64,000 bases of DNA from Accumulibacter sp. (GTDB lineage Bacteria > Pseudomonadota > Gammaproteobacteria > Burkholderiales > Rhodocyclaceae), in the NCBI GenBank assembly GCA_024235715.1, contig JACKLW010000010.1, forward strand, positions 124,001 to 188,000, written 5' to 3'. The translations under genes were made by a program, and so were the position numbers. Below, piece by piece: positions 3,001 to 30,681 of this stretch (position 1 is the stretch's first letter; every line of letters starts with the position of its first letter). The notes under the pieces are model-generated. The model was not told where the DNA came from, did no database searches, and saw only the letters and a list, made by a program, of their open reading frames with translations.

Positions 3001-3620
3001 TGCTGGGTGGAGGCTTCCGCATGTCGACCTCGAGCGGTGCCAATCTGCACTACTTCCGGCTGCGTGCCGAGGCGGTATCTGCTCCCGCCTCGCTTACGGC
3101 GGTCGTGCTGGAGCGCGGTGGCAGCTGGCAGGCCATCGGCCCGGCGCACATGAACGTCCCGATCGCAACCGGTGCCGCCACGGTCATCGAAACGCTGTTC
3201 ACGCCGGGTTCCAGCGCCGAGGCGGCTCTCGTCTTTACCGTTCAGGCTGGACGCACGATGCGCATCCACGAGGTCTCGGTGGTGCCGTTGAGCAGCTTCG
3301 AACTATTTTCCCCGATGACCGAATCGACGCTGCTGACCAACGATACGTCGTCAACCAGGGCGGTGACCTGCGCCGAGGCCGGAATGCGCAGTTGCACAGC
3401 GCTTGACCTGGCAGGAAACAGCGTCAGCTGGCCGGTGACGCTACCCGCCTTCGCATCACGCGTCGTCGTCAGCGCCGACGCCAAGTGGCGGCAGCCGGCC
3501 GAACCGGTCAATGGCTCGCAGCTGCGCCACCGGCCGGCGGTTTCGGCGCGCATGTCGGGCGGTGCTCCATCAACTCCCCTTGTCGGTAAACTTTACACGC
3601 CACGACGCGGTAGCCGCTAG
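1..3620 (+). CDS. Secreted S8 (subtilisin-like) protease fused to Ig-like and right-handed beta-helix domains; 5' end outside window
   Basis: The reading frame is open from base 3, so the gene begins upstream of the window and the catalytic Asp and His are not visible. The visible part shows the oxyanion Asn block (AAAGNRGQ, nt 180-203) and the catalytic Ser in GTSVATAVVAG (Ser codon at 372-374; the family's usual Pro after the second Ala-x is Val here). An Ig-like segment follows at about 590-840, then a low-complexity Ala/Pro linker (to about 1000). A long parallel beta-helix begins with the typical DSVLGNDQQAGTLAQPW entry at about 1033 and runs to about 2700, and a beta-rich tail follows. 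Secretion is inferred from family; no PEP-CTERM tail is present. A protease joined to a polysaccharide-lyase-like fold next to an EPS operon suggests surface or matrix processing. The 3' end contains a regulatory element for the next operon. Domain calls are from sequence pattern only. Confidence 0.85.
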   Translation, partial: PIRISDPQGYAPVSAIAAGLVWAADHGARVASISHEYASNAATIDSAAQYFKGKEGLTIAAAGNRGQGENIASTGNMVIVSATDRDDRVPSWSSFGTYINIAAPGQDILTTTRGGGYGHWSGTSVATAVVAGTAALMIAANPALSTSQIQSILYSTAVDLGGVGKDEHYGAGRVDAAQATRLAAATPSANPPAPTVTISAPAGGTVGGLVLVDVAASHSVSVARVELAVNGKTYATDTTSPHGFVWDTTAVPDGVVTLTAYAYDAAGNYTSAQPVRVMVANSKAASPDTPSPTQAAQSKSIAAPAPAAMPAAGANAAALPQAAAIEGAAATVISATSFSGRGWYVDSVLGNDQQAGTLAQPWKTLARATQNVYAAGDALLLKCGSTWREATALSNANAPAGGLVIGSYGSNCSASNRPKVSGADLIGGVTWTIEAGFGGRPVYVATWPKAVKTLYWNGTPMAPARHPNFNGVGQEFALVASVLNASAFKRATGELAAIGSDLVGATVYVRSNPWAMESREVLSSSSDGTIATTVPFYGGVDAGEGYFFEGKLALLDSPGEWHYDAAAKRLYVWTPTGQSPVTGVLESGQRPNGLTIWQANGTRIENIVFERQLERGLFVIDAPNTQVTDVVAQDAGLTGIEIVSSTADGWSADSRVTRALVRNAGTTGISITGPRITVTESDVEGTGMGPMTTGVSSGIHAQGTGITLSNNRISDSSFAAISLSNAGGMSITGNTLLRACRRLTDCGALYSAGTPSAAARTLVSHNTIKDMTENVEGAVGGAPDLTTGIYLDQFSANHDVTDNMISNVGFGIKLHNSANNVVRANRVWLSRNASIRVHNSSANETVRGNIIEDNELFASSHYVQKQPNALPVQQQVFAQQWLHSSNASLMFSGSNPNIVRRNSVGTLTAARDVRWNLVDGWSSRQLDASGWAALTTGETVRNPFPARLVLPTGSAPNLVPNGNFQAPGDPWWFYGSGSMSYGGCSTGCGNFQSANSNDLLLGGGFRMSTSSGANLHYFRLRAEAVSAPASLTAVVLERGGSWQAIGPAHMNVPIATGAATVIETLFTPGSSAEAALVFTVQAGRTMRIHEVSVVPLSSFELFSPMTESTLLTNDTSSTRAVTCAEAGMRSCTALDLAGNSVSWPVTLPAFASRVVVSADAKWRQPAEPVNGSQLRHRPAVSARMSGGAPSTPLVGKLYTPRRGSR
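3581..3597 (+). promoter_or_regulatory. Candidate enhancer-binding-protein site (TGTCG-N6-TTTACA), copy 1
   Basis: The sequence TGTCGGTAAACTTTACA lies inside the last codons of the protease gene, 65 bp upstream of the sigma-54 -24 element at 3663. The same 5+6+6 pattern occurs upstream of two other sigma-54 promoters in this window (29209-29225 and 30665-30681), each time reading TGTCG to TTTACA toward its promoter. It is a partial dyad (TGT...ACA), as expected for a Fis-type DNA-binding dimer. That it binds a PrsR-like activator is inference. Confidence 0.6.
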
Positions 3621-3662
3621 CCGATCGCCTTAGTACATGTTTTTTCAGGACACCACGCATTC

Positions 3663-3678
3663 GGGCACGCTAATTGCT
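3663..3678 (+). promoter_or_regulatory. Sigma-54 (-24/-12) promoter of the EPS operon
   Basis: GGGCACG-CTAA-TTGCT matches the RpoN consensus TGGCACG-N4-TTGCW at all but the first base and keeps the invariant GG-N10-GC spacing. Predicted transcription start is about 3688, giving a leader of about 340 nt before the UDP-glucuronate decarboxylase start at 4028. The enhancer-like element at 3581-3597 sits 65 bp upstream. Confidence 0.65.
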
Positions 3679-4027
3679 TGCGCATCGTTCGTTCCAGAAA
3701 ATCCACCGCCTTTCTTCCGATCACCATGAATTAATGCGCATGCGACTAATGGGCGGCTGTTAGCATGTCCTAACGCCAGCGCCCGTGTACAACACAACAG
3801 CGAGGCGCGAGAGGCATCGCCACGCGTTCCCGCACAACAGAGACAAACCGTCATATGATACTGCCACCAACTCAGCTGACCATCGGCCCTGAGGGCCAGC
3901 TTTACGCCGACACCGCGGGTGCGCAAACTCGCCATACGCGAACCTCTGCCCCACGCTGGGGCGTGTGCCGCTCGTTTGTGGTGCCTGTTTTGCCGTGCTT
4001 TGCTCCTCACCGCAACGAGGTTGCCGC
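3679..4027 (+). other. Long 5' leader / intergenic region before the EPS operon
   Basis: No gene is supported between the protease stop (3620) and 4028. The region contains the sigma-54 promoter and then an untranslated leader. Within it I see one short perfect hairpin (GGCCCT-G-AGGGCC at about 3884-3896) and a weak TTAG/CTAA dyad near 3760-3772, but no recognised riboswitch or U-run terminator. Confidence 0.4.
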
Positions 4028-4990
4028 GTGAGAGACGCCACCCGCAAGGCTTGCCTGGTCGCCGGAGGCGCCGGATTCCTCGGCTCGCATCTGTGCGAGC
4101 GCCTGCTTGATCGCGGTCACGAGGTGGTCTGCCTGGACAATTTCTTTACCGGCAGCAAACGCAATATCGAGCACCTGCTGCATCATCCGCGTTTCGAGTT
4201 GATGCGCCATGACGTGACGTTTCCGCTTTATGTCGAGGTCGACGAGATCTTCAACCTGGCCTGTCCGGCATCTCCCGTGCACTACCAGCACGATCCCGTT
4301 CAAACGACCAAGACCAGCGTCCATGGCGCGATCAACATGCTCGGCCTGGCCAAGCGCCTGCGCGCGAAGATCCTGCAAGCGTCGACCAGCGAGGTCTATG
4401 GCGACCCGCAGGTCCACCCGCAGCGCGAGGATTACTGGGGCCACGTGAATCCCATCGGGCATCGTGCATGCTATGACGAAGGAAAGCGATGCGCCGAAAC
4501 GCTGTTTTTCGACTATCACCGGCAGCACAAGCTGCGCATCAAGGTGATGCGAATATTCAATACCTATGGCCCACGCATGCATCCGAACGACGGGCGCGTC
4601 GTGTCGAACTTCATCGTCCAGGCCCTCACCGGCAAGGACATTACCCTGTACGGAGACGGCTCGCAAACGCGCTCTTTCTGCTACGTGGACGACCTGGTCG
4701 AAGGCGCGCTGAAGCTGATGGACACCGACGATCTCATCATTGGCCCGGTCAACGTGGGCAATCCGGTGGAGTCGACGATCCGCGAGTTGGCCGAGCGTAT
4801 CGTTGAACTGACCAATTCACGCTCGGTGATCGTCTACCGTCCCCTGCCCAGCGACGATCCCATGCAGCGCTGCCCCGACATCGCTCGTGCGCGTGCGTGG
4901 CTGGATTGGGAGCCGCAGGTGCAACTCGAACAGGGGCTGCGCAGCACCATCGAGTACTTCGACCGCCTGCTCGGTCGGCCCGCCACCTGA
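4028..4990 (+). CDS. UDP-glucuronate decarboxylase (UDP-xylose synthase), SDR family
   Basis: Converts UDP-glucuronate to UDP-xylose with bound NAD+, supplying a pentose donor for EPS. The protein (320 aa) has the Rossmann motif GGAGFLGS near residue 13, followed by the UXS hallmark [15 protein letters not shown], and the catalytic Y-x3-K as YDEGK in the [13 protein letters not shown] block. NAD-sugar SDR landmarks such as [10 protein letters not shown] also match UXS. A GTG start at 4028 is chosen because it begins just before the conserved N-terminus and has AACGAGG upstream; an ATG at 3965 would add a non-conserved leader. First gene downstream of the sigma-54 promoter at 3663. Confidence 0.9.
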
Positions 4991-5518
4991 CCGCAACAAC
5001 GGAGGAATGCGTTCTGCCAGTTGACCCGCCGCCATGCGGCACGTCCCGGACCGAGATCATGCTTGCCCCGATCGGCACCTGTCTGAACGCCGGGTTCGGG
5101 GCCGCCAAGGACCTGACAGACATCATGGGCGTGGCCCTTAGCCAGGAGTGCTGGCGCAGACGGGTCCTTCGTGTTACGTCGCGCGGTCGATCGCTGAGGC
5201 GCTGCGGACTCGGCGGCATAACGAATACCTTCGCCACTTCGCCAGGATCTGCCGCACCGTCAGCCAGACCCACGCCACCCCGAGAGCACGATTTCGATTG
5301 GGAAACGATGCCCGTTGAACCTAGAATACGGATCGCCGCACGTGCCGTGGGCGAACCCGAGCACACTGCCGACCATGCTAAATTCATGCAAACGGCTGAG
5401 CTGCTCTGTCGGCAGACAGGTCGAGGCGCAGCGGCCTGGTGGGGCGAGAACCGCGACTCGGTGAAGGTCTCCTGATGGCCACCAGCCAGTCCATGAATTC
5501 GGAAAACGCGAAAAAAAG
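4991..5518 (+). other. 528-bp gap with no convincing gene
   Basis: No frame here gives a recognisable product; the open frames on both strands look like GC-driven shadows. It contains a small perfect inverted repeat (CTGTC-GGCA-GACAG, 5406-5419) and, at its end, a 15-codon ORF that overlaps the Wzz start. A decayed gene or regulatory leader is possible. Confidence 0.3.
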
Positions 5519-5522
5519 ATGA
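5475..5522 (+). CDS. Possible 15-aa leader peptide overlapping the Wzz start (ATGA)
   Basis: MATSQSMNSENAKKR begins at an ATG preceded by GAAGGT at Shine-Dalgarno distance, and its TGA overlaps the Wzz ATG (ATGA at 5519-5522). The Wzz gene itself has only an A-rich tract upstream, so coupled translation through this micro-ORF is plausible. Similarity cannot be judged at this length. Confidence 0.3.
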   Translation: MATSQSMNSENAKKR

Positions 5523-7579
5523 AACCATCAACCGCCCATTTCGGTCTGCGGGAGACTCTCGCCACGCTGTTTAGGCACAAGACCCTGATTATCGGCGTGG
5601 CGCTTGTCACCGCTGCCACGAGCTTCGCTGTCGCCCTGTTGCAGTCCAAGGTCTGGGAAAGCTCGGCGCACATGCTGGTGCAGCAAAATCGCCAGTCGGT
5701 GCACCTTGGCGCCTCGGCCAGTGGCTCCGATGCACAGATCGGTCTCAATCGCCTGGCCATCGTCCGGACGGAAATCGAGATCATGTCGAGTACGCCCGTG
5801 CTGGCGGAAACTGTGCGTCGCATCGGGCCCGAAAAGATCCTCGACACCATGCGCTGGCGCTGGGACTGGCTGCTCGACCTGCCAGACGAGGTCTACCAGG
5901 CCGTCAAGCGCTTCGTGCTGCAAGCGATCTTTGGAGATCCCCCTGGCGTCGGACTGACACCCGTACAGTTGGCGATGAGAAAGGTTGACGCGCACCTGAA
6001 GATCGATGCAGTGCGTGAGTCCGATGTCTTTGTCGTCACTGCCGAAAGTCCCGATCCGGAGTTCTCCGCCGAGTTGGTGAACACCCTGGTCGACGTCTAT
6101 CTCGGACATCATATCAAGGTGCGGCAGGGAGCGGCCACCGCAGGCGTATTCACGGCCGAGACCGAACGCCAAAAACTCGAGTTGCAGGCTGCCATCGATC
6201 GACAGCAGGCGTTCAAGGCCCGCACCGGAATTGTCGCCGTTGGTCCGCAGAAGCAACTCCTGATCCAGCGGCTCAGCGATGCTGAAGGCGCATTGCAACG
6301 TGCCGAGATCGAGGTCGCCGAAAGCCGGCAACGCATAGTCGAGGGCGAGCGGCAGTTGGCCAAACGTTCGCCCGAAACCCCGGCCCTGGATTCCCTGCGC
6401 CAGAAGCTGGCCAAACTGGAAATAGAGCGCGGGAACTACCAGCCGGGCAGCGATGCCGGACGCAGTATCGACCTCGAGGTCGCCAACGTAGAAGCGCGCA
6501 TTCAGGCCGAACAGGGACGCGCCGGAGCCCGGCAGGTCGCGGGCGTGGACGCCACCTACCAGGAAATCGAGCGTGACGTGCTGGCCGAACGGTCGAAAGT
6601 CAGCGCCCTGTCGTCGCGGATCGCAGACCTGAGCGCCGCAGTCGACGAATACCGGCGACAACTGAAAGAGCTGGACAGCCAGGAGACCATACTGCGTGAC
6701 ACGATGCGCGAAGTCGAACTGAAGGAGGAGGCACTGCGCGGCTCTCTCAAGAAGCAGGAGGAGGAGCGCTTGAGCGGTATCCTCAACGACTACAGGGTAA
6801 CCGACGTGGTACCCATCGAGCGCGCAACGCCTGCGGATCGCCCGTCGCGCCCGCGCAAGCTGCTCAACCTCGGACTTGGGCTTGCCGGCGGGCTCTTCGC
6901 CGGGCTGGTCCTGGCACAGCTCAGCGAATACTTTCGGCGTACCATCACCACTCGCGAAGAGGCGGAAAGCCAACTTGGACTGCCGGTGCTTGGCAGCCTG
7001 CCAGACGTCGGGCGCGCACCGGATTCAGTGGCTCTCCAGCAAATCGAGCTGCGTCGCATCGCCGAGGCCCTGCGACAACGACGCGGCGACGCCGACGGCG
7101 TGACGGTGCTGGTTACCAGCAGCAGCGCGGGAGAAGGCAAGAGCACGCTGATACGCGAGCTCTCGGCATTGCTCGGGCGTAGCGACGGCACCGGTGCGAC
7201 GGTCGACGCCAGCGACGGGCAACTGCACCTGCCCGGCGTTTCAACGTCGTCCGGCCCACCCTCACCGGTCAGCGCCAAGGGAATCGCCGCGTCGCGCGGC
7301 GCCCTCGAGGCCTTGCGGCGGGAGCACGGCATCGTGCTGATCGACGGACCGGCAATGGGCACCTCGGGCGAAGGCCTGTGGCTGCCAGAAATCGTCGACA
7401 CGGTGCTGCTGGTCGTCGAGGCCGAACGTACCACCGGCATCAATGCCATCCAGACCCGCCGCCTGATCGAAGGCGCCGGCGGAAGGCTGATCGGCGTGGT
7501 TCTCAACCGCCGCCGCTTCGTTATTCCCGGCTGGGTGTACGGCTGGCTGCTCTCGCCTCGCCACGCCATGCAAGGCTGA
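5519..7579 (+). CDS. Polysaccharide chain-length determinant (Wzz) fused to a BY-kinase-like ATPase domain
   Basis: Inner-membrane co-polymerase of Wzx/Wzy-dependent EPS assembly, 686 aa. A first membrane segment lies at about residues 22-41 and is followed by the periplasmic Wzz region. Long coiled-coil stretches follow (about 170-430), then a second membrane segment at about 447-465 with the family's LPVLGSLPD entry to the cytoplasmic domain. The P-loop is SSSAGEGKS (about 533-542) and a second acidic strand is IVLIDGPAMG. The domain looks degenerate. The usual hydrophobic-DxD-R block after the P-loop is replaced by ATVDASDG, and the C-terminal tyrosine cluster of BY-kinases is missing (only one Tyr near the end). 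It may therefore act as an ATP-responsive regulator and not as an autophosphorylating kinase. Confidence 0.88.
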   Translation: MKPSTAHFGLRETLATLFRHKTLIIGVALVTAATSFAVALLQSKVWESSAHMLVQQNRQSVHLGASASGSDAQIGLNRLAIVRTEIEIMSSTPVLAETVRRIGPEKILDTMRWRWDWLLDLPDEVYQAVKRFVLQAIFGDPPGVGLTPVQLAMRKVDAHLKIDAVRESDVFVVTAESPDPEFSAELVNTLVDVYLGHHIKVRQGAATAGVFTAETERQKLELQAAIDRQQAFKARTGIVAVGPQKQLLIQRLSDAEGALQRAEIEVAESRQRIVEGERQLAKRSPETPALDSLRQKLAKLEIERGNYQPGSDAGRSIDLEVANVEARIQAEQGRAGARQVAGVDATYQEIERDVLAERSKVSALSSRIADLSAAVDEYRRQLKELDSQETILRDTMREVELKEEALRGSLKKQEEERLSGILNDYRVTDVVPIERATPADRPSRPRKLLNLGLGLAGGLFAGLVLAQLSEYFRRTITTREEAESQLGLPVLGSLPDVGRAPDSVALQQIELRRIAEALRQRRGDADGVTVLVTSSSAGEGKSTLIRELSALLGRSDGTGATVDASDGQLHLPGVSTSSGPPSPVSAKGIAASRGALEALRREHGIVLIDGPAMGTSGEGLWLPEIVDTVLLVVEAERTTGINAIQTRRLIEGAGGRLIGVVLNRRRFVIPGWVYGWLLSPRHAMQG

Positions 7580-7621
7580 GTCCTTGCGCCCCTTTCCTTG
7601 CACCATTCACCGGAGGTCAAC

Positions 7622-8437
7622 ATGACGACCTATGCAGACTCACGCGATCACCCCGACTGGATTGGCGTAGATGGCTATTTCCAGCAGCACGACTACTGGC
7701 TCTCGCTATGCGGGCTGTATTCCCTCTACGACTTCGCCTGCGACAGGCTCGGCGATCTGCACGGGAAACGGCTGCTCGACTGCGGCTGCGGCAAGGGCCA
7801 TACCTCGGTGATGCTCGCCAAGCGCGGCGCTCAGGTGAGCGCATTCGACGCGTCCGGCCCGGACCTGGGCGTCGCCGGGCGGTTGGCGGAGGCGAACCGC
7901 CAGTCGGTCGAGTTCAAGACGCTGTTCTTCGAAGAGCTCGACTATCCCGACGCTTCCTTTGACAGGGCCTTCGGCGCCTGCGTCCTGCATCACGTGGATA
8001 TTCCACGGGCAGTGAAGGAACTCGGCCGCGTGCTGGCGCCGGGAGGCCGCGCAGTGTTCGTGGAGAACTCTGCGCGCAACCCGCTACTGATGCTGGCGCG
8101 GCGCCGGCTTGTCGGCAGGCTCGGCATTCCCCGCTATGGCGACGACCACGAGCACCCCCTGCGCCGGTCAGACTTCGACGCCATGCGCGCCGCCTTCGAT
8201 GGCACCGTCACCGTCCACTTTCCCGATTTCGTAGCCTTCCGGCTGCTTGACTTCTATGTGCTCCGCCGCCGCGTGCCATTGCTCAGCCGGCTGCTGCGAG
8301 GCGCCGACCGGCTCTGCCAGCGCATACCCTGGGTGCGCGAATTCAGCTATTTCCTGGTCGTGCAGTTCGACCGCGCCGGCGCACCGGCGGCGTCGCGCCC
8401 GGCCGAGCAACACACCCGACACGTAACCGACGCCTGA
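7622..8437 (+). CDS. Class I SAM-dependent methyltransferase
   Basis: 271 aa with SAM-binding motif I LLDCGCGKGH at residues 51-60 and a following acidic strand end (VSAFDAS), typical of the Methyltransf_11/25 group. Motif around DRAFGACVLHHV matches the post-II region. Likely methylates a sugar or lipid-linked intermediate of the EPS; the acceptor cannot be told from sequence. The ATG at 7622 is preceded by GGAGGT at ideal spacing. It sits between wzz and the GH26-like gene in the same orientation. Confidence 0.85.
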   Translation: MTTYADSRDHPDWIGVDGYFQQHDYWLSLCGLYSLYDFACDRLGDLHGKRLLDCGCGKGHTSVMLAKRGAQVSAFDASGPDLGVAGRLAEANRQSVEFKTLFFEELDYPDASFDRAFGACVLHHVDIPRAVKELGRVLAPGGRAVFVENSARNPLLMLARRRLVGRLGIPRYGDDHEHPLRRSDFDAMRAAFDGTVTVHFPDFVAFRLLDFYVLRRRVPLLSRLLRGADRLCQRIPWVREFSYFLVVQFDRAGAPAASRPAEQHTRHVTDA

Positions 8438-8440
8438 CAA

Positions 8441-9760
8441 ATGCCCCGAGCCACGCTACCCACTCGCAAGCACCATTGCGCTACTGCGGCGTTCTGCCTG
8501 CTCGCGGCACTGACCCAGCCGGCACCACCCGCGCATGCCAAGGAAAGAAACGAGTTCGCACTCAAGGATCCGAAAGCCGCCGCGTCGTGCAAACCCGACG
8601 CCCGGCCGCCATCGCCGAGAACCCGCAGTGCGGCGGATTCGGTCAAGGTGCTGCCGCCATTGCAGGGCATCTACGCCGGCGTGTACAGTATCGGCACCAC
8701 ACGCGCCGACGTCAGGGCATTCGAGCGCAAGACCGGCAAGCCGCCGGCGATCGTGTTCACCTTCCATGACTGGGTGCTCGACGACGACCTGATGAGGAAG
8801 GACCCTCCGCTGCGCACCCTGGACAGCGAAATGGAGGACAAGGGCATCACGGCGCTGCAGCTGGCGCAGCAACTCGCCGAGCGGGGGACAGTGCTGGCGC
8901 TGACCTGGGCAATCCAGTGCTGCGAATGGACGTCTACCGCCTGGTGGTTCGGCCTGAAGAAAACCGAGATCAGTGTGCCGCGACTGCTGAAAGGCGATTT
9001 CGACGACTACATTCGCCGGGTTGCACGCCAGACGAAGGGCTTCGGCAAACCGATCATGATGAGCCTCTTCTCCGAGTTCAACTGGCAGGGCGCCTTTGCC
9101 TTCGGCAAGGACGGCATGAGCGGCATCTCCCGGGTCGACGACATCTGCGGACAGTACGGCGACCCGGCCTGGCCCGACGGGCCGGAGCGGATACGCGACG
9201 CGCACATCCACGTGATCGACATCTTTCGCCAGGAAGGCGTCAAGAACGTCACGTGGTTCATGTACGCCAACAGCGGCTACATGGACCCCGCGGGCACGGA
9301 CTACAGCCCATGGCTGCATCCGAAGTTCTTCTATCCCGGCGATGACTACATGGACTGGGTCGGCCAGAGCACCTACTTCGTCGACCCGTCGTGGACGCAA
9401 CAGATCAGCGAGGACGCCGCCGTGATCGAGCGTGCGCTGGGCCCCGGTTACCGGGCCTGGGGCGAAGTCACGCAGAAACCGCTGTTACTTCCCGAGTTCG
9501 CCGCCGTCGGCGACAAGAAAGTCAACCGCGCACCGGTGCTGCGCGAGGTGATGGGCAAGGTGCTTCCCGGCATGCCGCGCGTCAAGGCCATCACCCTGGC
9601 CGACTTCCTGATTGCCGAGATCTGCTGCCAGGTCCCGCGGCTCGGCGAGCCGCATGCTGACGAGATAACGGCGTGGCGCCAGAGCGTCGGCGAAAACCCT
9701 GCATATCAATTCAAGGTCCGCACCGGCCCGCCATCAGCATCAAGCAACCAGAGAAATTGA
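8441..9760 (+). CDS. Secreted GH26-like glycoside hydrolase
   Basis: 439 aa with an N-terminal signal peptide (hydrophobic core around residues 14-26, likely cleavage after AHA at 31-33). The TIM-barrel landmarks resemble GH26 mannanase-type enzymes: MSLFSEFNWQG with Glu212 as probable acid/base, YPGDDYMDWVGQ (about 298-309), and LLLPEFAAVG with Glu352 as probable nucleophile. It begins three bases after the methyltransferase stop. In Wzy-type clusters, periplasmic hydrolases trim or control EPS length, or clear stray polymer; the substrate is unknown. The family call rests on motifs and is moderate. Confidence 0.75.
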   Translation: MPRATLPTRKHHCATAAFCLLAALTQPAPPAHAKERNEFALKDPKAAASCKPDARPPSPRTRSAADSVKVLPPLQGIYAGVYSIGTTRADVRAFERKTGKPPAIVFTFHDWVLDDDLMRKDPPLRTLDSEMEDKGITALQLAQQLAERGTVLALTWAIQCCEWTSTAWWFGLKKTEISVPRLLKGDFDDYIRRVARQTKGFGKPIMMSLFSEFNWQGAFAFGKDGMSGISRVDDICGQYGDPAWPDGPERIRDAHIHVIDIFRQEGVKNVTWFMYANSGYMDPAGTDYSPWLHPKFFYPGDDYMDWVGQSTYFVDPSWTQQISEDAAVIERALGPGYRAWGEVTQKPLLLPEFAAVGDKKVNRAPVLREVMGKVLPGMPRVKAITLADFLIAEICCQVPRLGEPHADEITAWRQSVGENPAYQFKVRTGPPSASSNQRN

Positions 9761-9764
9761 GCAA

Positions 9765-11197: not shown

Positions 11198-11220
11198 GCC
11201 AGCGCCAGCCGTCGTCGATC

Positions 11221-12681: not shown

Positions 12682-12790
12682 ACATCGCACCAGGCCGCGC
12701 GCATCGACGGCACGACAACCGCACAGCCTCGTCACGGCCAGGCGTGGCGAGGCCCTATCGGCGACCCGCCCGCAAGGAAAAGCGTTCATC

Positions 12791-17683: not shown

Positions 17684-17775
17684 GTCGACCACCGCCTCGC
17701 CAGCCGCCACCCGACCCATCCTCGTCCAAGCGCTCGGTGCCAGTTGAGCGGCCAGCGCCCCTTTCGAGAACATAG

Positions 17776-19712: not shown

Positions 19713-19741
19713 CTGGCATAAATGGACACACGGGAGCAGAC

Positions 19742-23638: not shown

Positions 23639-25293
23639 TCAGCCGCAGTCGCGACGTCGTAGAGGGCAGTACCATGACGTGTGATGTTTGCGTCATCGGC
23701 GCGGGCGCAGCCGGTATCGCACTGGCCCTCGAACTCGAGAGCCAGGGTCGCTCGGTACTGCTGCTCGAGGCCGGTCGGCGGCGCAACGCCGGTCCAGCGC
23801 AGGCCCTGTACCAGGGCACACTCAACGACCCGCAAAGGCACCTGCCGCTCGACCAGGCGCGCTACCGCCAACTCGGCGGTACGACCGCCTTGTGGGGCGG
23901 CCGCTGCCTGCCCTACGACGGCATCGACTTCGAGTCGCGGCCGTGGGTGCCGCATAGTGGCTGGCCGCTGACTCGCGCTGAGCTCGACCCCTGGTACGCC
24001 CGGGCCCACCACTACCTGGAGTGCGGCGCCTTCGACTACCGCGCCGCCAGCGCGCTGGGCACGACAGCCGGCGAGATGGTGCCGGGCTTCCGGGACGGTG
24101 CGATCGACACCGGTTCGCTGGAACGTTGGAGCCCGCCGACGCACTTCGGCAAGGTGTACCACGACGCGCTGAAGAAGTCGTCGCGCGTGCAGGTGATGCT
24201 CGACGCCGTGGCGACGGCCCTCCACACCGACGACAGCGGCAGCTCTGTCACTGCCATCGAAGTCAAGCATCCGTCCGGCACGCGGGGCTTTCGCATACAG
24301 CCTCACGAAGTGGTGCTGGCCGGCGGCGGACTCGAGACCACGCGCCTGTTGATGACTTCGCGACAAGGAACGCGGGACGGCATCGGCGCCGCGTCGGGCT
24401 GGCTGGGCCGTGGCTACATGGCACACATCCACGGCGTCATCGCGCGCGTCCGCTTTCGCGCCGGCACGCCGGTCATCTCGGGCTACGAACAGGATGCGCA
24501 GGGGGTCTACGTTCGGCGCCGGCTGTGGGTATCCGAGCGCGCGCAACGCGAGTTGGAACTGCTGAACATCTATATGCTTCTCGATCGGCCCCTGCTCGAC
24601 GACCCTAGCCACGGCAGCGCCGTGCTGTCGGCCGCCTTCCTCGCGAAAAAGCTCTTTCAACGCGGCCGCGACGAGAACCTGGGCAGCGGCAAGTACGCGA
24701 TCTACTGGTCGCATCTTCGCAACATCCTCTCCGGATCTCCCGAGGTGGTATCCTTCCTGCCGCCCTTCGCGCGCAATCGTTTTCTGCAGAAGCGCCGCGT
24801 TCCGTCGATGGTCGTCAAGGCGAAGAGCAACGAGTTTCACCTCTATTTCCAGAGCGAGCAGGTGCCGCATATCGACGCCGGGCTGCGCCTCGCAGACGGC
24901 CGCGATGCACTGGGGCAGCGGCAGCTGCACCTTGATTTCAGGGTGCAGCCACAGGACACCGACTCGGTATGGCGTGTCCACCAGCTGGTGGATCGTGAAC
25001 TGCGCGCGCAAGACCGGGGGGAACTGCTTTTCGATGACCACGCAGTCGAAAAACTCACCCAATCGAAGGCCGTACTCGGCCACCACGTGGGCACCACGCG
25101 CATGGCCGGCGACCCGGCAAACGGTGTGGTCGACGCCGACTGCCGCGTGCACGGGTTGCGCAACCTGCATGTGGCCAGCGCGTCGGTCCTGCCCACCAGC
25201 AGTCACGCCAACCCTACCCTGACCGTCGTCGCCCTGGCACTGCGTCTGGCACACAGCTTGAGCGCCAGGAGCGCTGGTGCTGCCGGTTCGTAA
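23635..25293 (+). CDS. FAD-dependent GMC-family oxidoreductase
   Basis: 552 aa. FAD motif GAGAAGIALALELE at about residues 22-35 and the GMC C-terminal block HHVGTTRMAG followed by NLHVASASVLPTSSHANPTL, containing the catalytic His/Asn region. Family members oxidise alcohols or sugars (glucose, choline, pyranose). Its place inside an EPS operon, directly after an aldo/keto reductase, points to oxidation of a sugar or glycan precursor; this is inference. Start is 23635 (overlapping) or ATG 23674. Confidence 0.87.
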   Translation: MISRSRDVVEGSTMTCDVCVIGAGAAGIALALELESQGRSVLLLEAGRRRNAGPAQALYQGTLNDPQRHLPLDQARYRQLGGTTALWGGRCLPYDGIDFESRPWVPHSGWPLTRAELDPWYARAHHYLECGAFDYRAASALGTTAGEMVPGFRDGAIDTGSLERWSPPTHFGKVYHDALKKSSRVQVMLDAVATALHTDDSGSSVTAIEVKHPSGTRGFRIQPHEVVLAGGGLETTRLLMTSRQGTRDGIGAASGWLGRGYMAHIHGVIARVRFRAGTPVISGYEQDAQGVYVRRRLWVSERAQRELELLNIYMLLDRPLLDDPSHGSAVLSAAFLAKKLFQRGRDENLGSGKYAIYWSHLRNILSGSPEVVSFLPPFARNRFLQKRRVPSMVVKAKSNEFHLYFQSEQVPHIDAGLRLADGRDALGQRQLHLDFRVQPQDTDSVWRVHQLVDRELRAQDRGELLFDDHAVEKLTQSKAVLGHHVGTTRMAGDPANGVVDADCRVHGLRNLHVASASVLPTSSHANPTLTVVALALRLAHSLSARSAGAAGS

Positions 25294-25319
25294 TCCAAAC
25301 CAGACCCAAGGAGGAAAGC

Positions 25320-26321
25320 ATGACTTTCAGAGGTAAACGAATTCTCGTCACCGGCGGTGCCGGGCAGATCGGATCACACCTCGTGGCAGCATTGCACGAC
25401 GCCGGCGCCGAGGTCCTGGTCGCCGACAACCTGTGGCGCGGAAAACGCGAAAACCTGATCCGCCAGGGATCGCCATTGATCGGTCCCGAGCACTTTCACA
25501 AACTTGACCTCACCGATGCCGAAGCGTGCCGGCAGGTGACACGAAACTGTGATCTCGTCTACCACCTCGCTGACGTCGTGGCCGGCATCAACTACGTGTT
25601 CGGAAACCAGTTCTCGCTGTTCAACGTCAACCTGCGCATCGACTCCAACATGCTGGCTGCGGCCGTGGCCAACAAGGTGCCTCGCTACATCTACGTGGGC
25701 ACCGCCTGCAGCTACCCGGCGTCGCGCCAGACGCTGGCCAGCAACGGCACGACGCCGCTGTTTCGCGAGGAGGAAGTCTACCCCGCGATGCCCGAATCGT
25801 CGTACGGATGGTCGAAGCTGATGGGTGAGTACCAGGCCGAACTGGCGATGAACGAAGAACTGCTCGATGTCGGCCTGTTACGCCTGCACAACGTTTACGG
25901 TCCGCACTGTGAAACATCGGCCGAGAAGTCGCAGGTGATTCCGTCGCTTATTCGCAAAGCCATCCGTCACCCCCAGGAGCCGTTCGTCGTCTGGGGCACC
26001 GGCCGGCAGCGACGCGCTTTCGTATACGTCAGCGATATCGTGGACGCGCTGCTGGCAGTGGCCGATCGCGGCATGAACCGTGGAGTCATCCAGATCGGTC
26101 CTGATTACAGCACCTCGATCCGAGAGTTGGCGGAAGCGGTGGTGAAGCTCGCGGGCAAGCCGATCGACATCACGTACGATCCTACACGCCGCGAGGGAGA
26201 CGGCGACCGGGCCGCCGACTACGCCAAGGCACGCGCAGTTCTCGACTGGCAGCCACGCGTCCCGCTCAGCGAAGGCCTGCGCCGCACCTATCAATGGTGC
26301 CAGCAGCAACTCGCCCCATGA
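25320..26321 (+). CDS. NAD-dependent sugar epimerase/dehydratase (SDR)
   Basis: 333 aa extended SDR with GGAGQIGS at about residues 12-19 and catalytic YGWSK. The active-site region GTACSYPASRQ has Cys where most epimerases have Ser/Thr, as in GDP-mannose 3,5-epimerases (SACIYP); the substrate remains uncertain. A very strong AAGGAGGAAAGC precedes the ATG, the best ribosome site in the operon. Likely provides a further NDP-sugar for the EPS. Confidence 0.85.
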   Translation: MTFRGKRILVTGGAGQIGSHLVAALHDAGAEVLVADNLWRGKRENLIRQGSPLIGPEHFHKLDLTDAEACRQVTRNCDLVYHLADVVAGINYVFGNQFSLFNVNLRIDSNMLAAAVANKVPRYIYVGTACSYPASRQTLASNGTTPLFREEEVYPAMPESSYGWSKLMGEYQAELAMNEELLDVGLLRLHNVYGPHCETSAEKSQVIPSLIRKAIRHPQEPFVVWGTGRQRRAFVYVSDIVDALLAVADRGMNRGVIQIGPDYSTSIRELAEAVVKLAGKPIDITYDPTRREGDGDRAADYAKARAVLDWQPRVPLSEGLRRTYQWCQQQLAP

Positions 26322-26352
26322 TGCCCCCTAAACCCGGACGGAAGCCGCTCTC

Positions 26353-26727
26353 GTGACCCTGACCAACCTGCTGCTGGTCCTCACCAGCGTGTCGATTACC
26401 GCTCTGGGCCAGATCGCCCTGAAGATGGGCACCTCCAACCCACAGATCCGCAGCGCCATGGAGGGCGCAGGTCTGGCCGACAGTTACTGGCTGATGCTGA
26501 CCTCGCCGCTGGTGATCGCCGGACTCGCCGCCTATGGGGTCGGCGCGATGATCTGGCTCAAGGCAATTTCGTCGCTCGACGTGAGCCAAGCCTATCCATT
26601 CGTGGCCCTTGGCTTCGTCATTACGATGACCATCGGTATTCTCTGGCTTGGCGAGCCGGTCCTCGGCAACCGCCTGCTCGGCGGCGCGCTGATCATCGTC
26701 GGGGTGACACTGATCGGGCTGCGCTGA
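26353..26727 (+). CDS. Small four-helix DMT/SMR-type membrane protein (ArnE/F-like)
   Basis: 124 aa, four predicted membrane segments, GTG start. The SMR-type blocks ALGQIALKMG, YPFVALGFV and LWLGEPVLGNRLLGGALIIVG match EamA/EmrE-type small multidrug or lipid-sugar flippases such as ArnE/ArnF. As the last gene of the EPS operon it may flip a polyprenyl-phosphate sugar for the GT39-like transferase; this is inference. Confidence 0.8.
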   Translation: MTLTNLLLVLTSVSITALGQIALKMGTSNPQIRSAMEGAGLADSYWLMLTSPLVIAGLAAYGVGAMIWLKAISSLDVSQAYPFVALGFVITMTIGILWLGEPVLGNRLLGGALIIVGVTLIGLR

Positions 26728-26934
26728 CTTTCGGGCGGTGCCGAATCGCTCCGCGTGGAATCAACTGCATCAGCGAGCGCGCGACAGCGGACGAGTCGCA
26801 AGCTGCGCGGCGGCGGCAAGCAGACAATGCCGTTTGCAGCGCCGCGCCAGTCAAAGGGCACCTGCCCGCCAACCACCGAAGCGCACGAAACGCCACGCCC
26901 TCCGGAGGCCTCTCGTCGCGTGCCGAATCACGAC

Positions 26935-27771
26935 CTACACGTCGGCCGCACGGCAAATCGCCTGCGGGCCGAACTTGGCGAGAAAGCATTGGGCATCTTC
27001 CACGGTCAGCGGCTTCATCAAACGCAACTGAATCAACACCGTGAAAAGCAATATCTGGAAGTCCATGCTTGCCGCGTAGTGGCTGCCGACGATGTGACAG
27101 TAGCGCGTCTCGAGTGCCAGGCGGTCAGCGTCTTCGAGACTGTCCCGACCAACCAGTTGCGGCAAACCCGTGAGCCCGCTCGGCGTGGCAAAGCGCGCCT
27201 CTGTATTCGGATAGCGTTCCTTCAGTGCCGCGATTACGTTCTCGGGCAGAGGGCGATTGCCCACGATTGTCAACGTGCCCGTAATGACCTGGAGCACTTG
27301 CGGCAGTTCGGTGAATTGGCAGCGCTCGATGAGACGGCCAACCCGGGTGTACATCGGCGAATCGATTGGCGTGTTGAGGAAACGCTTGTCGCTGACCGGC
27401 ACCGTCGCGCGGTTGTAGATCTTTTCCGCGTCGCGCACCATGGTCCTGAACTTGAGCACGCGCGCCTGCTCTTTACCCCACACGCGTCGCACGGACACGT
27501 AGAAGATCGGCCGTCCCTCGAACAGCAGTTGGACAATCGTGCAAACCAGCAGCGCGACCAGCCACACCGGTGCCGTGAGCAGACACAGGCTCAGGTCGAA
27601 GAGTCGCTTCCGCAGCGGGGGTGTCATCCGTGCCGCGGCCGGGTTCTCGAAAAGGCCACCCGGACCGGAGCGCTGACGCTCTTGCGGCGGTGCGTTCGTC
27701 AGCGTCGCAGCCGAACTTGCGACGCCATCATGCGGGTCCAGCCGCGTGCGCTTCTTTGTTGGGGGGTTCAT
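26935..27771 (-). CDS. Priming polyprenyl-phosphate sugar transferase (monotopic PGT) with atypical catalytic dyad
   Basis: 278 aa. After a variable N-terminus, one hydrophobic reentrant helix is followed by KFRTM and the block TELPQVLQVITGTLTIVGNRPLP typical of bacterial sugar transferases. It should load the first sugar-phosphate on undecaprenyl phosphate. Odd: the catalytic Asp-Glu of DELPQ is Thr-Glu here, so the nucleophilic Asp is missing. The gene is the second of a minus-strand pair behind the sigma-54 promoter at 29118-29133, and is convergent with the EPS operon end. Confidence 0.85.
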   Translation of the reverse strand: MNPPTKKRTRLDPHDGVASSAATLTNAPPQERQRSGPGGLFENPAAARMTPPLRKRLFDLSLCLLTAPVWLVALLVCTIVQLLFEGRPIFYVSVRRVWGKEQARVLKFRTMVRDAEKIYNRATVPVSDKRFLNTPIDSPMYTRVGRLIERCQFTELPQVLQVITGTLTIVGNRPLPENVIAALKERYPNTEARFATPSGLTGLPQLVGRDSLEDADRLALETRYCHIVGSHYAASMDFQILLFTVLIQLRLMKPLTVEDAQCFLAKFGPQAICRAADV

Positions 27772-27865
27772 AGTTGTTCGTCCTCGTCAGAACCATCGCG
27801 GCGCACCGGTGGCGCCGCCAAACATCGGAAAAAAGCCCATCTTCAGTGAGATCGAAGCGAAGGGC

Positions 27866-28939
27866 TTAAGCACGGATGACCTCGGCCTTCTTGCCGCCGA
27901 CACGATAATCCTCGATCCTGCCAAACATGCCCCGGAACGCGCCCCAGCCGATGGACATCGCCTGGACGACCATGAAGAACGGAGCCAGCAGCTTCAGCGA
28001 CAGCGACCCGTTCATCCGCAGCACGAACGGAATCGTGCTCGCGAAAAGCGCTAACCAGGCGGTCACGGCGGCTATGCCGAGCCATGCAACACCACTGAGC
28101 GCCAGAATGGAGAGCGACGGGGCCAGTGCTGAGAGGAGGATCTGAAACTTCAGCGTCTGCGGCGTGTAGCTGTCCCGCACGAGCTTTTCTGGATAGCGCT
28201 TGAAGACCAGCGTGCGCCAATAGCCGCGCCCTATCTTCTTGCTGATGTAGTCGCCCCAGGTCGCGGGATGGCGATGATAGACCAATCCCTTCGGTGCGAA
28301 GACGATACGGTGCCCGTGTTGCGCGAGACGGTACGATAGCTCGAGATCGTCCGCATTGTTCGGTATGCGCTCGTCGAAGCCCTGTGTATCCAGAAAAGCC
28401 TGGCGACGCACCGCGCAAGAATGCGTAAACGCGATATCGATAAAACGATGTCTGGCAACATAGCGGTAACGATCTTCGAACTCCGTCTGCGCCAACCGCG
28501 CAACCGCACTCTGTTGCTTGGTCAGATAACCTCCAGCCACTGCCTGAATCTCCTCGTCCGCAAGAGGTTTCATCATCTCTTCGACCCAGTTCAGGGTTGG
28601 CTCGCAGTCGGCGTCGGTGAATAGCACGACATCGCCCTCTGCCTCCTGGACCCCACGATTGCGGGCCGCACCGGCGCCGCCCCAAGGCTTCTGTATCAAG
28701 CGCAGGCGGGGCGACGACCCCTCCTTCGACCAGGCATCCATCTCTGCCTGCACCATCGCGGCTGTATCGTCCGTGGACTCGTCGTCGATTACGATCACCT
28801 CCAGTTTGGCGCTCGGGTAGCTCTGCTGGCGCAGTGCCGCAAGACAGTCCGGCAGCACTGCCATGCCATTTCGGACCGGGATGATGACGGTGACGCTGGG
28901 TTGTTCCATTCGTTCATTCTCCACTGCGTGTTCCGACAC
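27866..28939 (-). CDS. GT2 glycosyltransferase with C-terminal membrane segments
   Basis: 357 aa. GT-A motifs TVIIPVRNG, IDDESTDDT and FTDADCEP (DxD) in the N-terminal half; two or three hydrophobic helices near the C-terminus (about 265-330) should anchor it to the inner membrane. Start at 28939 or at the in-frame ATG 28909, which begins closer to the conserved motif. Transcribed with the priming transferase from the sigma-54 promoter about 180 nt upstream. Confidence 0.87.
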   Translation of the reverse strand: MSEHAVENERMEQPSVTVIIPVRNGMAVLPDCLAALRQQSYPSAKLEVIVIDDESTDDTAAMVQAEMDAWSKEGSSPRLRLIQKPWGGAGAARNRGVQEAEGDVVLFTDADCEPTLNWVEEMMKPLADEEIQAVAGGYLTKQQSAVARLAQTEFEDRYRYVARHRFIDIAFTHSCAVRRQAFLDTQGFDERIPNNADDLELSYRLAQHGHRIVFAPKGLVYHRHPATWGDYISKKIGRGYWRTLVFKRYPEKLVRDSYTPQTLKFQILLSALAPSLSILALSGVAWLGIAAVTAWLALFASTIPFVLRMNGSLSLKLLAPFFMVVQAMSIGWGAFRGMFGRIEDYRVGGKKAEVIRA

Positions 28940-29117
28940 GCGACATGTGCAAGCCTACCGGGACAGCGAAACAGCACACGCAAAAAAAGACACGCTTGGG
29001 TACAAAGAGTTTCCGGCAAGGTCCGGCGCACTGGCGGCAACCGGCCCGGAGAACCTCTGCCCGGAACCCTGTTGCGCGCGGCAAAAAGAAAAGCAGCGGG
29101 GCCTACAAAAAAAAGCA

Positions 29118-29133
29118 AGCATATACCGTGCCA
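29118..29133 (-). promoter_or_regulatory. Sigma-54 promoter of the GT2/priming transferase pair
   Basis: On the minus strand: TGGCACG-GTAT-ATGCT, a full -24 element and a near-consensus -12 with the required GG-N10-GC spacing. Predicted start about 29107. It is almost identical to the promoter at 30585-30600, including the GTAT spacer. Confidence 0.72.
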
Positions 29134-29208
29134 GAAGAGGTCTGTGAGTGCTATATCAACCGCTTGCACTGCCTCTTGCCCCGGCAAGCCGGACGCAGGC
29201 AGGCCTGC

Positions 29209-29225
29209 TGTAAATATCCTCGACA
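29209..29225 (-). promoter_or_regulatory. Candidate enhancer-binding-protein site (TGTCG-N6-TTTACA), copy 2
   Basis: On the minus strand TGTCGAGGATATTTACA, 75 bp upstream of the -24 element at 29133. Same orientation and pattern as copies at 3581 and 30665; the gap is longer by about one DNA helical turn. Confidence 0.6.
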
Positions 29226-29595
29226 AATTCGCACACGTGCTCGCGACCAACCCGCCTGTCAAGGCATTCGCTATCTGCTTCTTCTTCCCGAGTGTCAATG
29301 GGCTGAAGTCTCTGCTTGTAATGCGACCACGCTTTGCTACCGCGAATAACGCCGCGAGACTTCCGGCCGAACAGGTTTCCTCCTGCTCTTCGCAAAGACT
29401 GGCAGGCAAGCCCGGTAACGACCACCAACGATTAACGCGGAGAACAGCGCTGACGTCGTCCAGTTGCGCACACCGGACGACGCAGGGCAGGCACGCTTCT
29501 TGGGCACGTCTGGCCGCGTCGCGCCCAGAACCTGTGCCGCGGGTCCCAGGCGCCGCGATGTCGGTTCTCGTACAGACGCACGCAAACCCGGTCCC

Positions 29596-29624
29596 AAAAA
29601 AAACACGGCGCAAATCGCCGTGTT
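29596..29624 (-). terminator. Rho-independent terminator after the PEP-CTERM gene
   Basis: Perfect 9-bp stem (AACACGGCG / CGCCGTGTT) with a 5-base loop, followed on the minus strand by a run of eight T. It lies about 100 nt beyond the PEP-CTERM stop and before the GT2 promoter, so the two minus-strand units are separate transcripts. Confidence 0.85.
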
Positions 29625-29724
29625 GTGCCCTTCAAAGGTCCTTGGCCACTTGGCGCGACCCGCTTCACAAATAGGAAGTGAGGGCGGCGGCACTTGCGGA
29701 GGGGAAAAGCGAGAGCGCTACCGA

Positions 29725-30438
29725 TCAAGCCAGTTTTTTGCGCCCCACCCTCCAGCCGAAAGCAAGCAGGCCCAAGCCGATCAGACTGAGGACGGTTGGC
29801 TCCGGCGTGTTGTTGACCTGCAGGCGCTGCACACCACTGCCGGGAACCTGGGAATCGTAGACCGCCGAAAAATACGAAACGTCGGCGCCCCTGTAGTAAT
29901 ACCAGCCGGCCTCACCCGTATCGCCGGCCTGCAACGAGTAGTCGATGACCTGCGTAAAATCGGCAGCTGGAATAAACATGTTGGAGGCGCTGGAAACAGA
30001 CTGGAGTGCAACCACGACATCCGCACCCGTTTCGCCGAAGTCAGTGGTAGCCGCGGCATCGAACAAGGGCAGTCCCTGACTGAGGTAGCTCGCCAGATAC
30101 TGAAAATTCCCGAACCCGGCCCCGGCAGTCGATGACACCGACGAGAAGGACAAACCGTCAACAGTAACCGTGGTCGTGAACGAGGGCCCCGATCCCTCCG
30201 ACTGGATGGCATAAGGAGGATCGGTAGTGATCAACGGGTTGAGGTCTGGATCGATCGTGACCTGCATGCTGAAAGCCTTACCCGCCAATGAGCCACCACC
30301 AACAAGCCCGAGCGGATCGTCGCCCGTGGTGATCGTGCCGCTGGTGGCAATTGTCCAGGGTATTGCATGCGCTACGGGCGCGACCAAGGTAAACGCTGCT
30401 GCGCAGAGGAGCAGCGAAAGTTTGGTTGCAACTGACAT
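29725..30438 (-). CDS. PEP-CTERM sorting-domain protein
   Basis: 237 aa. Signal peptide (KLSLLLCAAAFTLVAPVAHA), a beta-rich middle of about 180 residues with no known catalytic motif, and a C-terminal tail with PEPTVLSLIGLGLLAFGW then basic residues: the PEP-CTERM signal cut by exosortase (XrtA-type) in EPS-producing bacteria. The ATG at 30438 is preceded by AAAAGGAGAA; an upstream in-frame start at 30492 would hide the signal peptide. It is driven from the sigma-54 promoter at 30585-30600 and ends at a strong terminator. No exosortase gene lies in this window. Such proteins are surface or matrix components in floc-forming bacteria. Confidence 0.9.
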   Translation of the reverse strand: MSVATKLSLLLCAAAFTLVAPVAHAIPWTIATSGTITTGDDPLGLVGGGSLAGKAFSMQVTIDPDLNPLITTDPPYAIQSEGSGPSFTTTVTVDGLSFSSVSSTAGAGFGNFQYLASYLSQGLPLFDAAATTDFGETGADVVVALQSVSSASNMFIPAADFTQVIDYSLQAGDTGEAGWYYYRGADVSYFSAVYDSQVPGSGVQRLQVNNTPEPTVLSLIGLGLLAFGWRVGRKKLA

Positions 30439-30584
30439 AGTCGATTCTCCTTTTTTGCGATGGCGACTTGACCAACCTGGCCAACCGGGCAATACGGCAA
30501 CCTACCGACCAGCAACCCGAAAGGCCCCGAGCGGTTCGCCCGAGCGCGATTCGCGCCCTGCCGTTGCACCTTATACGATACAAA

Positions 30585-30600
30585 AGCACATACTGTGCCA
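30585..30600 (-). promoter_or_regulatory. Sigma-54 promoter of the PEP-CTERM gene
   Basis: On the minus strand: TGGCACA-GTAT-GTGCT, with GG-N10-GC spacing and a 14/16 match to the GT2 promoter. Predicted start about 30573. RpoN control of PEP-CTERM genes with the PrsK/PrsR two-component pair is known in floc-forming betaproteobacteria. Confidence 0.72.
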
Positions 30601-30664
30601 GTCCTGTCAAGCCAATGATTACTCAGACAATTTGAAATATTTCCCGGCGATCGAAGCTGCTCGG

Positions 30665-30681
30665 TGTAAAAAATTCCGACA
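30665..30681 (-). promoter_or_regulatory. Candidate enhancer-binding-protein site (TGTCG-N6-TTTACA), copy 3
   Basis: On the minus strand TGTCGGAATTTTTTACA, 64 bp upstream of the -24 element at 30600, matching the 65-bp gap of copy 1. Confidence 0.6.

Follow-up and report, generated by a model that had tools for sequence, protein, structure and literature searches.

The window, the whole 64-kb stretch of Accumulibacter DNA that was analysed, contains three exact matches to TGTCGN6TTTACA and no others, and all three point toward a sigma-54-like promoter. One copy precedes a PEP-CTERM gene (PF07589) and the other two precede exopolysaccharide genes. Sites resembling those of integration host factor (IHF) were searched for with the gapped patterns YAAN4TTGATW and WATCAAN4TTR, which we take to be the IHF consensus in its two orientations. 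The features are listed below, the gap being the distance from the end of the box to the first base of the -24 element.

3581..3597, + strand: PEP-CTERM box copy 1, exact match; fits motif 1 of Haft et al., predicted PrsR site
3630..3642, + strand: weak IHF-like stretch at the usual place (copy 1), 3 mismatches to the consensus
3663..3679, + strand: sigma-54-like -24/-12 promoter of copy 1, GGGCACGCTAATTGCTT, gap 65 bp
3965..4990, + strand: NAD-dependent sugar epimerase/dehydratase gene, head of the exopolysaccharide cluster (Pfam Epimerase, 2.7e-50; NCBIfam); its true start may lie further downstream
27866..28939, - strand: family 2 glycosyltransferase gene behind copy 2 (Pfam Glycos_transf_2, 3e-30)
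29117..29133, - strand: sigma-54-like -24/-12 promoter of copy 2, TGGCACGGTATATGCTT, gap 75 bp
29154..29166, - strand: IHF-like site of copy 2, matching YAAN4TTGATW without mismatch; its start lies 33 bp upstream of -24
29209..29225, - strand: PEP-CTERM box copy 2, exact match
29725..30438, - strand: gene for a 237-aa PEP-CTERM protein behind copy 3 (Pfam PF07589, 26 bits, cut-off 20.7; no NCBIfam match)
30584..30600, - strand: sigma-54-like -24/-12 promoter of copy 3, TGGCACAGTATGTGCTT, gap 64 bp
30608..30620, - strand: IHF-like site of copy 3, reversed relative to that of copy 2 (WATCAAN4TTR with 1 mismatch); its start lies 20 bp upstream of -24
30665..30681, - strand: PEP-CTERM box copy 3, exact match

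The earlier note had reported three exact copies that read in the same direction relative to their promoters at gaps of 65, 75 and 64 bp, all of which was confirmed. Dinucleotide shuffles of the window yielded a mean of 0.01 exact matches, and three were reached in none of 100 shuffles. When two mismatches were allowed, 9 matches were found and 6.8 expected, so that the box stands out in its exact form alone. The -24/-12 boxes taken alone are weak evidence, because such patterns match many other places in the window: a loose pattern gave 56 matches versus 37 expected, and a stricter pattern allowing 1 mismatch gave 8 versus 2.8 expected, five of the eight lying outside the three promoters. The box does stand before the promoters that had been called "all three sigma-54 promoters", but the window may contain further ones.

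The exopolysaccharide locus looks strain-variable when compared at the DNA level with 27 other members of the genus. For positions 28700–30500, which include copy 2 together with its promoter and, for copy 3, the gene without the promoter, four genomes matched, with nothing longer than ~33 bp. The copy 1 region matched in 11 of the 27, nine of them only by stretches of ~36–120 bp; G730 and G737 shared a long part of the epimerase gene, and the locus searched contained no box at up to 1 mismatch. There was little scope to assess conservation at orthologous loci, since the exopolysaccharide DNA of the window was mostly absent from the genus members searched.

Across the whole genome, 18 exact copies of the box were found versus none of the backwards control, which lifted the concern that the pattern had been chosen after the fact. 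For 16 of the 18 copies, the best sigma-54 box lay at 63–65, 74–75, 84–87 or 96–97 bp. Two were off pattern: C6:91426 (L007), whose sole -24/-12 candidate was at 37 bp and out of phase, and C11:152683 (L015), with a candidate at 199 bp, a promoter that has a 2-mismatch box 64 bp from it. Scores of the sigma-54 boxes in this genome overlapped those of the control (12.0–14.0 downstream versus 9.5–13.0 for the best upstream match, with 1 tie in 18). By eye, PEP-CTERM-type genes were identified behind 11 of the 18 boxes. Home-made tests for a C-terminal sorting domain encoded downstream were positive for 101 of 156 sites in the relaxed version, as compared with 7 of 156 for the opposite strand, and for 78 of 156 in the strict version. 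The enrichment before PEP-CTERM-type genes that had been proposed as a check was thus found.

The distance between box and promoter was quantised. Gaps of 49–55, 60–66 or 71–77 bp accounted for 270 of 274 sites from 82 genera, which extends the remark on helical phase in the earlier note far beyond three sites. These teeth held 149 of the 150 listed sites from the same order; in other orders, for which the teeth had been fixed beforehand, they held 120 of 124. With one site retained per genus and gap, 196 of 200 were still on the teeth, the three teeth being present in 22, 69 and 37 genera, respectively. Merging sites of equal gap and 60% identity left 152 of 156, as the spacers were mostly dissimilar, and the Accumulibacter genome alone displayed four teeth. 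The box positions were ~52, 63 and 74 bp, with additional ones at 85 and 96 bp in this genome. The slope over the teeth gave a period of 11.0 bp (genus bootstrap 10.6–11.4) and of 10.8 bp for the Accumulibacter genome. We rejected a phase-concentration fit over gaps of 49–79 bp, which drifts to ~11.5 bp because these gaps cover few turns; the slope over the teeth is the better figure.

Orientation of the box was also nearly uniform, with 173 modules versus three with the reversed motif in the same 58 genomes. Allowing two mismatches, we found no second box inside the spacers, and second boxes upstream lay at scattered distances (three at 111 bp, two at 122 bp, and the rest once each).

Between box and promoter, two of the three window promoters carry an IHF-like site (copies 2 and 3, with 0 and 1 mismatches), a feature that the earlier note had overlooked. 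With up to 2 mismatches, an IHF-like site occurred at the fixed positions in 107 of 156 sites versus 9.9 expected, these positions having been picked on those very sites. In the independent, held-out set of 107 sites from other orders, the preset positions gave 69 matches versus 6.7 expected. A 5-bp upstream shift reduced the matches to 11 versus 10.3 expected in the 156 sites and to 5 versus 7.3 in the held-out set; a 5-bp downstream shift left a mild excess in both (18 versus 10.8 and 12 versus 6.0, respectively). About one third of the sites had no match within 2 mismatches at that place. The IHF-like sites occurred both ways round, mirrored on one axis ~20 bp upstream of the -24 element. 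A shift of the site by one turn in the 71–77 bp class was seen in 8 of 26 sites and in 2 of 34 in the held-out set, and was not clearly replicated. The genome encodes ihfA, over the cut-off, at C5:180915.

Outside the window, the genome encodes adjacent prsR and prsK genes, both over their cut-offs (TIGR02915, 736 bits versus 502.6; TIGR02916, 686 bits versus 300). Nine further NtrC-type proteins matched the PrsR model with at least 269 bits, and the one encoded in the window (62653–63573) reached 296 bits versus the cut-off of 502.6. In 349 genomes of the same order, the mean number of box copies was 7.1 per genome in the 84 with PrsR and 0.97 in the 265 others, which were called PrsR-negative from four scored candidates per genome (control, 0.88; Mann-Whitney p = 2.7e-33). 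At least four copies were present in 56 of the 84 PrsR-positive genomes versus 11 of the 265 others, and 10 of the 84 carried just 0–1. In 16 motif-bearing PrsR-negative genomes, a second search that scored most or all candidates found no PrsR over the cut-off; nine of them nevertheless hold modules, 19 in total, and either the gene is missing from the assemblies or another regulator reads the box there. The 80 named PrsR loci, none longer than 9.4 kb, added just one box, with a gap of 63 bp. With copy number tracking PrsR and both prsR and prsK in the genome, the earlier proposal of a PrsR-like regulator's binding site is very probably right as a prediction.

The view that the motif had not been described was wrong. 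In 2006, Haft et al. (PMC1569441) described as motif 1 a 17-nt sequence with TTTACA at its end, followed by a spacer and a sigma-54 motif, and the element fits it. According to the accessible part of that paper, the spacer is 62.8 ± 10.6 nt (range 32–92), within which the window gaps of 65, 75 and 64 bp fall, and PrsR was derived from the distribution of the motif. That system (motif 1/motif 2, the PEP-CTERM box with PrsR-PrsK-PrsT) and ours have in common the TTTACA end, the ~63-nt spacer, the sigma-54 box, the PEP-CTERM genes downstream and the co-occurrence with PrsR (PMC1569441). They differ in that the spacer was given there as mean, SD and range and is a quantised comb here, and in that exopolysaccharide genes make up two of the three window targets. 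The main text, in its accessible part, does not contain "IHF", "integration host factor", "phase" or "looping", and has "helical" solely in a reference title (PMC1569441).

Natural loop lengths ~11 bp apart are likewise found, in the accessible text, at the LuxO/qrr sigma-54 enhancers of Vibrio, for 61 qrr genes of one genus (PMC4740811), whereas our 274 sites come from 82 genera and involve another regulator and a placed IHF-like site. At IHF-assisted sigma-54 promoters, the IHF site also lies between enhancer and promoter, and the bending of DNA has been proposed to let the activator reach the polymerase (PMC7057263, PMC7962754). The usual separations there are 100–140 bp (PMC7962754), in contrast to mostly 49–97 bp here, and the IHF-like sites described here differ from those accounts, as far as available, in being regulon-wide and mirrored about one axis. 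A Geobacter IHF-mutant RNA-seq table includes a PEP-motif exosortase substrate (PMC7962754, accessible part). In the open-licence PMC literature, nothing was found on IHF or helical spacing at PrsR promoters, and within that literature the gap comb and the placed IHF-like site are apparently undescribed.

We give a probability of about 0.86 to the reading that the PEP-CTERM box is the PrsR site and acts through a short, IHF-bent, phase-constrained loop to the sigma-54 polymerase. PrsR would be a response regulator of the NtrC type of enhancer-binding proteins, with PrsK as its partner kinase, and in its phosphorylated form would bind the box. A bend made by IHF ~20 bp upstream of the -24 element would carry PrsR onto the sigma-54 RNA polymerase, leading to promoter opening and, we infer, expression. 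The loop would be short, and the box would for that reason have to stay on the same face of the helix as seen from the polymerase; its gap would therefore change in whole turns, with the IHF site free to face either way. What the sequence statistics themselves show is the motif, its orientation, the gap comb, the placed IHF-like site, the link to PrsR and the kind of gene downstream. The regulon in this genome would comprise PEP-CTERM proteins plus, in the window, exopolysaccharide genes. It is likely, if less so than this core reading, that PrsR promoters across the regulon share a looping device of three parts, built to a strict helical rule: a box that faces almost always one way, an IHF site of either orientation on the same axis and mostly fixed to the promoter, and a sigma-54 promoter, with whole-turn moves across dozens of genera.

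The most serious competitor, itself unlikely, keeps the box of Haft et al. and assigns the middle element to another bender (HU, Fis-like) or to an upstream element that the alpha subunit of RNA polymerase contacts. The spacer is indeed A/T-rich near the -24 element, and a mild excess was seen at one wrong shift; however, the gapped IHF consensus was matched both ways round on a mirrored axis and upheld in the held-out set, a gapped YAAN4TTGATW is not expected from a plain A/T-rich contact, and ihfA is in the genome. Still less probable is recognition of the box, in all or part of the genomes, by an NtrC-type regulator other than PrsR. The module-bearing genomes without a PrsR over the cut-off and the nine further NtrC-type matches here speak for it, but above-background copies are on average confined to PrsR-positive genomes, and the in-window protein scores far below the PrsR cut-off.

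Shared ancestry of a few promoters, in place of selection on helical phase, is a very improbable source of the comb. Sites within a genus are related and gap classes are heritable, yet the comb survived the genus-and-gap collapse, each tooth is spread over many genera, the spacers are mostly dissimilar, and one genome holds four teeth. As for a chance coincidence of three copies in a pattern defined once the sites had been seen, the shuffles, the 18 genomic copies versus 0 and the recurrence of the geometry in 82 genera have already refuted it.

PEP-CTERM proteins have been implicated in floc formation in activated sludge (PMC9850573, PMC9012009) and identified in an Accumulibacter granule secretome (PMC12019908), and in Zoogloea prsK and prsR mutants EPS biosynthesis was reported to be unaffected (PMC9012009), as far as the accessible parts of these papers go. 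The box before exopolysaccharide genes predicts that, unlike in Zoogloea, PrsR controls polysaccharide synthesis here. The system is reported from Zoogloea resiniphila MMB and Aquincola tertiaricarbonis RN12, both tractable in the laboratory. Knowing the box, its spacing rule and the accompanying IHF-like site makes it practical to catalogue PrsR-type promoters in any genome and to design a simple phasing experiment; the comb is also a large natural data set on the constraints that enhancer looping places on DNA. Should promoter strength be tuned by the turn number, the regulon could be ranked directly from the comb, starting with coat proteins and ending with polysaccharide synthesis.

The earlier note reported three exact copies of TGTCG-N6-TTTACA (the PEP-CTERM box), and all three were recovered with no further ones in the window, whereas shuffled windows held 0.01 copies on average and none of 100 shuffles reached three. 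Each copy faces a -24/-12 box, with gaps (from the box end to the first base of the -24 element) of 65, 75, and 64 bp for copies 1, 2, and 3, as had been described.

Features of the window
3581-3597 (+), PEP-CTERM box, copy 1
3965-4990, sugar epimerase gene heading an exopolysaccharide cluster, behind copy 1
27866-28939, family 2 glycosyltransferase gene, behind copy 2
29154-29166, perfect reverse IHF-like site, copy 2 promoter
29209-29225 (-), PEP-CTERM box, copy 2
29725-30438, PEP-CTERM protein gene (PF07589), behind copy 3
30608-30620, forward IHF-like site with one mismatch, copy 3 promoter
30665-30681 (-), PEP-CTERM box, copy 3
62269-63597 (+), second NtrC-type enhancer-binding protein, 442 aa

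The IHF-like stretch at the copy 1 promoter was weak. The protein encoded at 62269-63597 is not PrsR, the NtrC-type response regulator, scoring 296 bits against the PrsR model cut-off of 502.6; its HMM matches began near residue 129, and no receiver domain was matched.

The motif had been thought undescribed, but it matches one that Haft et al. 2006 (PMC1569441) give as a 17-nt motif ending in TTTACA, followed after a spacer of 62.8 ± 10.6 nt by a sigma-54 motif. The pair precedes 99 of 167 proteobacterial PEP-CTERM genes, and PrsR was predicted as the binder (PMC1569441). The motif is thus already known, and the three window copies are new members. For one such gene, a later paper maps a start site with -24/-12 motifs and remarks on the predicted enhancer (PMC9850573). 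A search of the open-licence literature found no report of IHF or helical spacing at PrsR promoters.

Across the Accumulibacter assembly (4.14 Mb, 25 contigs, 90.5% complete), the proposed genome-wide search yielded 18 exact boxes, compared with none for the pattern read backwards. Within 383 bp, the best sigma-54 box lay at gaps of 63–65 (6 boxes), 74–75 (2), 84–87 (5), and 96–97 bp (3) for 16 of the 18. When gap sets of the same size were drawn 20,000 times from a uniform distribution, not one was as concentrated in phase as these 16, from which the misfits L015 and L007 are excluded. Sigma-54 scores were higher downstream than the best upstream for 17 of 18 boxes, with one tie, although the ranges overlapped (12.0–14.0 downstream, 9.5–13.0 upstream). 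The misfit L015 (G000:C11:152683-152699) is a perfect box 199 bp upstream of a promoter that also has a two-mismatch box at 64 bp and a perfect forward IHF-like site, possibly a two-box promoter. The only -24/-12 candidate of L007 (G000:C6:91426-91442) lies out of phase at 37 bp; this exact box precedes a PEP-CTERM-type gene. By eye, a PEP-CTERM-type tail was found on the downstream gene for 11 of the 18 boxes. Box L010 (G000:C7:76031-76047) precedes a 157-aa gene and then a small gene, not a PEP-CTERM gene; by eye, the small gene looks like one for a PqqD-type chaperone. The genes prsK (the partner kinase) and prsR are adjacent on contig 19, each above its family cut-off; ihfA is also present. 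This PrsR shares 91% identity with the Candidatus Accumulibacter meliphilus protein, which makes the genome probably that of a Candidatus Accumulibacter.

PrsR exceeded the cut-off, among the four best candidates per genome, in 84 of 349 genomes of the order. These averaged 7.07 boxes (control 0.88), compared with 0.97 (control 0.88) in the other 265, and at least four copies occurred in 56/84 and 11/265 genomes, respectively. Counting against a PrsR reading, 10 of the 84 had 0–1 copies. A second search, in which all or most candidates were scored, took in 19 genomes. Sixteen carry the motif but had been PrsR-negative (including 10 of the 11 with at least four copies, G255 being left out), and the other three have a broken or partial PrsR. 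Only G303 exceeded the cut-off, with a frame (G303:C1:2610633-2611634) matching 336 of 445 model positions and holding four internal stop codons; its regulator is apparently decaying. Nine of the 16 PrsR-negatives nevertheless carried 19 modules (box, gap, and sigma-54-like promoter), 18 at the usual gap classes and one at 70 bp. Four of these genomes (G005, G137, G103, G100) had 2–6 such in-class modules each. Either missing contigs or another regulator would suffice to explain modules without PrsR.

The order search (box, 50–80 bp, GGCN8TGCW) covered 58 of the 84 PrsR-positive genomes; the remaining 26 were 25 with 0–3 copies and G303 with four exact boxes. It found 173 modules in 53 genomes, and among the 150 listed, 24 gaps fell at 50–55, 100 at 60–65, 25 at 72–77, one at 68, and none elsewhere. 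A class-wide set (369 genomes, 69 with a match) gave 124 sites in 66 genomes after the Accumulibacter genome and two of its order were removed, and 120 fell on teeth fixed before the count (50–55, 60–66, 71–77; p = 2e-18 against an even spread), the exceptions being 49, 68, 69, and 79. With edges drawn with the data in view (first tooth widened to 49), 270 of 274 pooled sites were on teeth; when each gap was counted once within a genus, 196 of 200 were (p = 5e-28 against an expected fraction of 0.677). Teeth were 11.0 bp apart (genus bootstrap 10.6–11.4; 10.8 in the Accumulibacter genome). Both searches see gaps of 49–79 only; it was the Accumulibacter genome that supplied the teeth near 85 and 96. 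Reversing the box gave three modules compared with 173 forward in the same 58 genomes, and two of the three involve boxes with a forward promoter as well. Because TGT-N11-ACA resembles an NtrC-kind dimer site, symmetry does not account for so strict an orientation. Across the middle of the box, the base preference runs from R through A/T to Y.

Of 170 distinct box sites in the loci retrieved, 156 had a strict sigma-54 match at 45–105 bp and were kept, the other 14 being set aside; at two sites that offered a choice of two sigma-54 boxes, the on-tooth one was used. A strict home-made test found a PEP tail in 78 downstream regions. The predicted enrichment before PEP-CTERM-type genes was borne out by a relaxed test, with 101/156 (30 without, 25 undecidable because the ORF ran off or was absent) compared with 7/156 on the opposite strand. 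By eye, a ~182-aa signal-peptide protein without a sorting tail, possibly a second target family, follows the module at L086, L131, L138, and L192, and proteins with twin-arginine-like N-termini follow it at L079, L176, and L180.

Spacers matched the IHF consensus, with at most one mismatch, in reverse (YAAN4TTGATW) at 60 sites and forward (WATCAAN4TTR) at 43, compared with 13.7 and 12.4 in shuffles. Matches clustered 31–33 bp (reverse) and 19–20 bp (forward) upstream of -24. The two placements are mirror images around a shared axis near 20 bp upstream, the pattern expected of an asymmetric bender that can bind in either direction. With at most two mismatches, 107/156 had a site at these positions (9.9 expected), compared with 11 (10.3) and 18 (10.8) at 5-bp shifts upstream and downstream. 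In an independent test with positions fixed beforehand, sites of other orders gave 69/107 (6.7 expected), and 5 (7.3) and 12 (6.0) at the shifts. The sites also occurred in 14 of the 19 modules of PrsR-negative genomes (0.8 expected), and at 14 of 1103 boxless sigma-54-like matches, a loose control, since many of these probably match by chance in richer G+C. In the 71–77 class (one mismatch in the first set), sites lay at the usual place in 10/26 and one turn further up in 8/26, but the held-out set gave 11/34 and only 2/34. A one-turn move is therefore not established, and we withdrew the idea that the site itself shifts by whole turns; it mostly stays with the promoter.

Our best reading of these sequence patterns is that PrsR would sit on the box, its predicted site, IHF would bend the DNA near -24, and PrsR would contact the sigma-54 polymerase through a loop so short and torsionally stiff that gaps would change by whole turns. 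Such a device would work like the IHF-assisted sigma-54 promoters described in PMC7057263 and PMC7962754, and the teeth resemble the loop lengths of qrr genes in Vibrio, which step by ~11 bp (PMC4740811).
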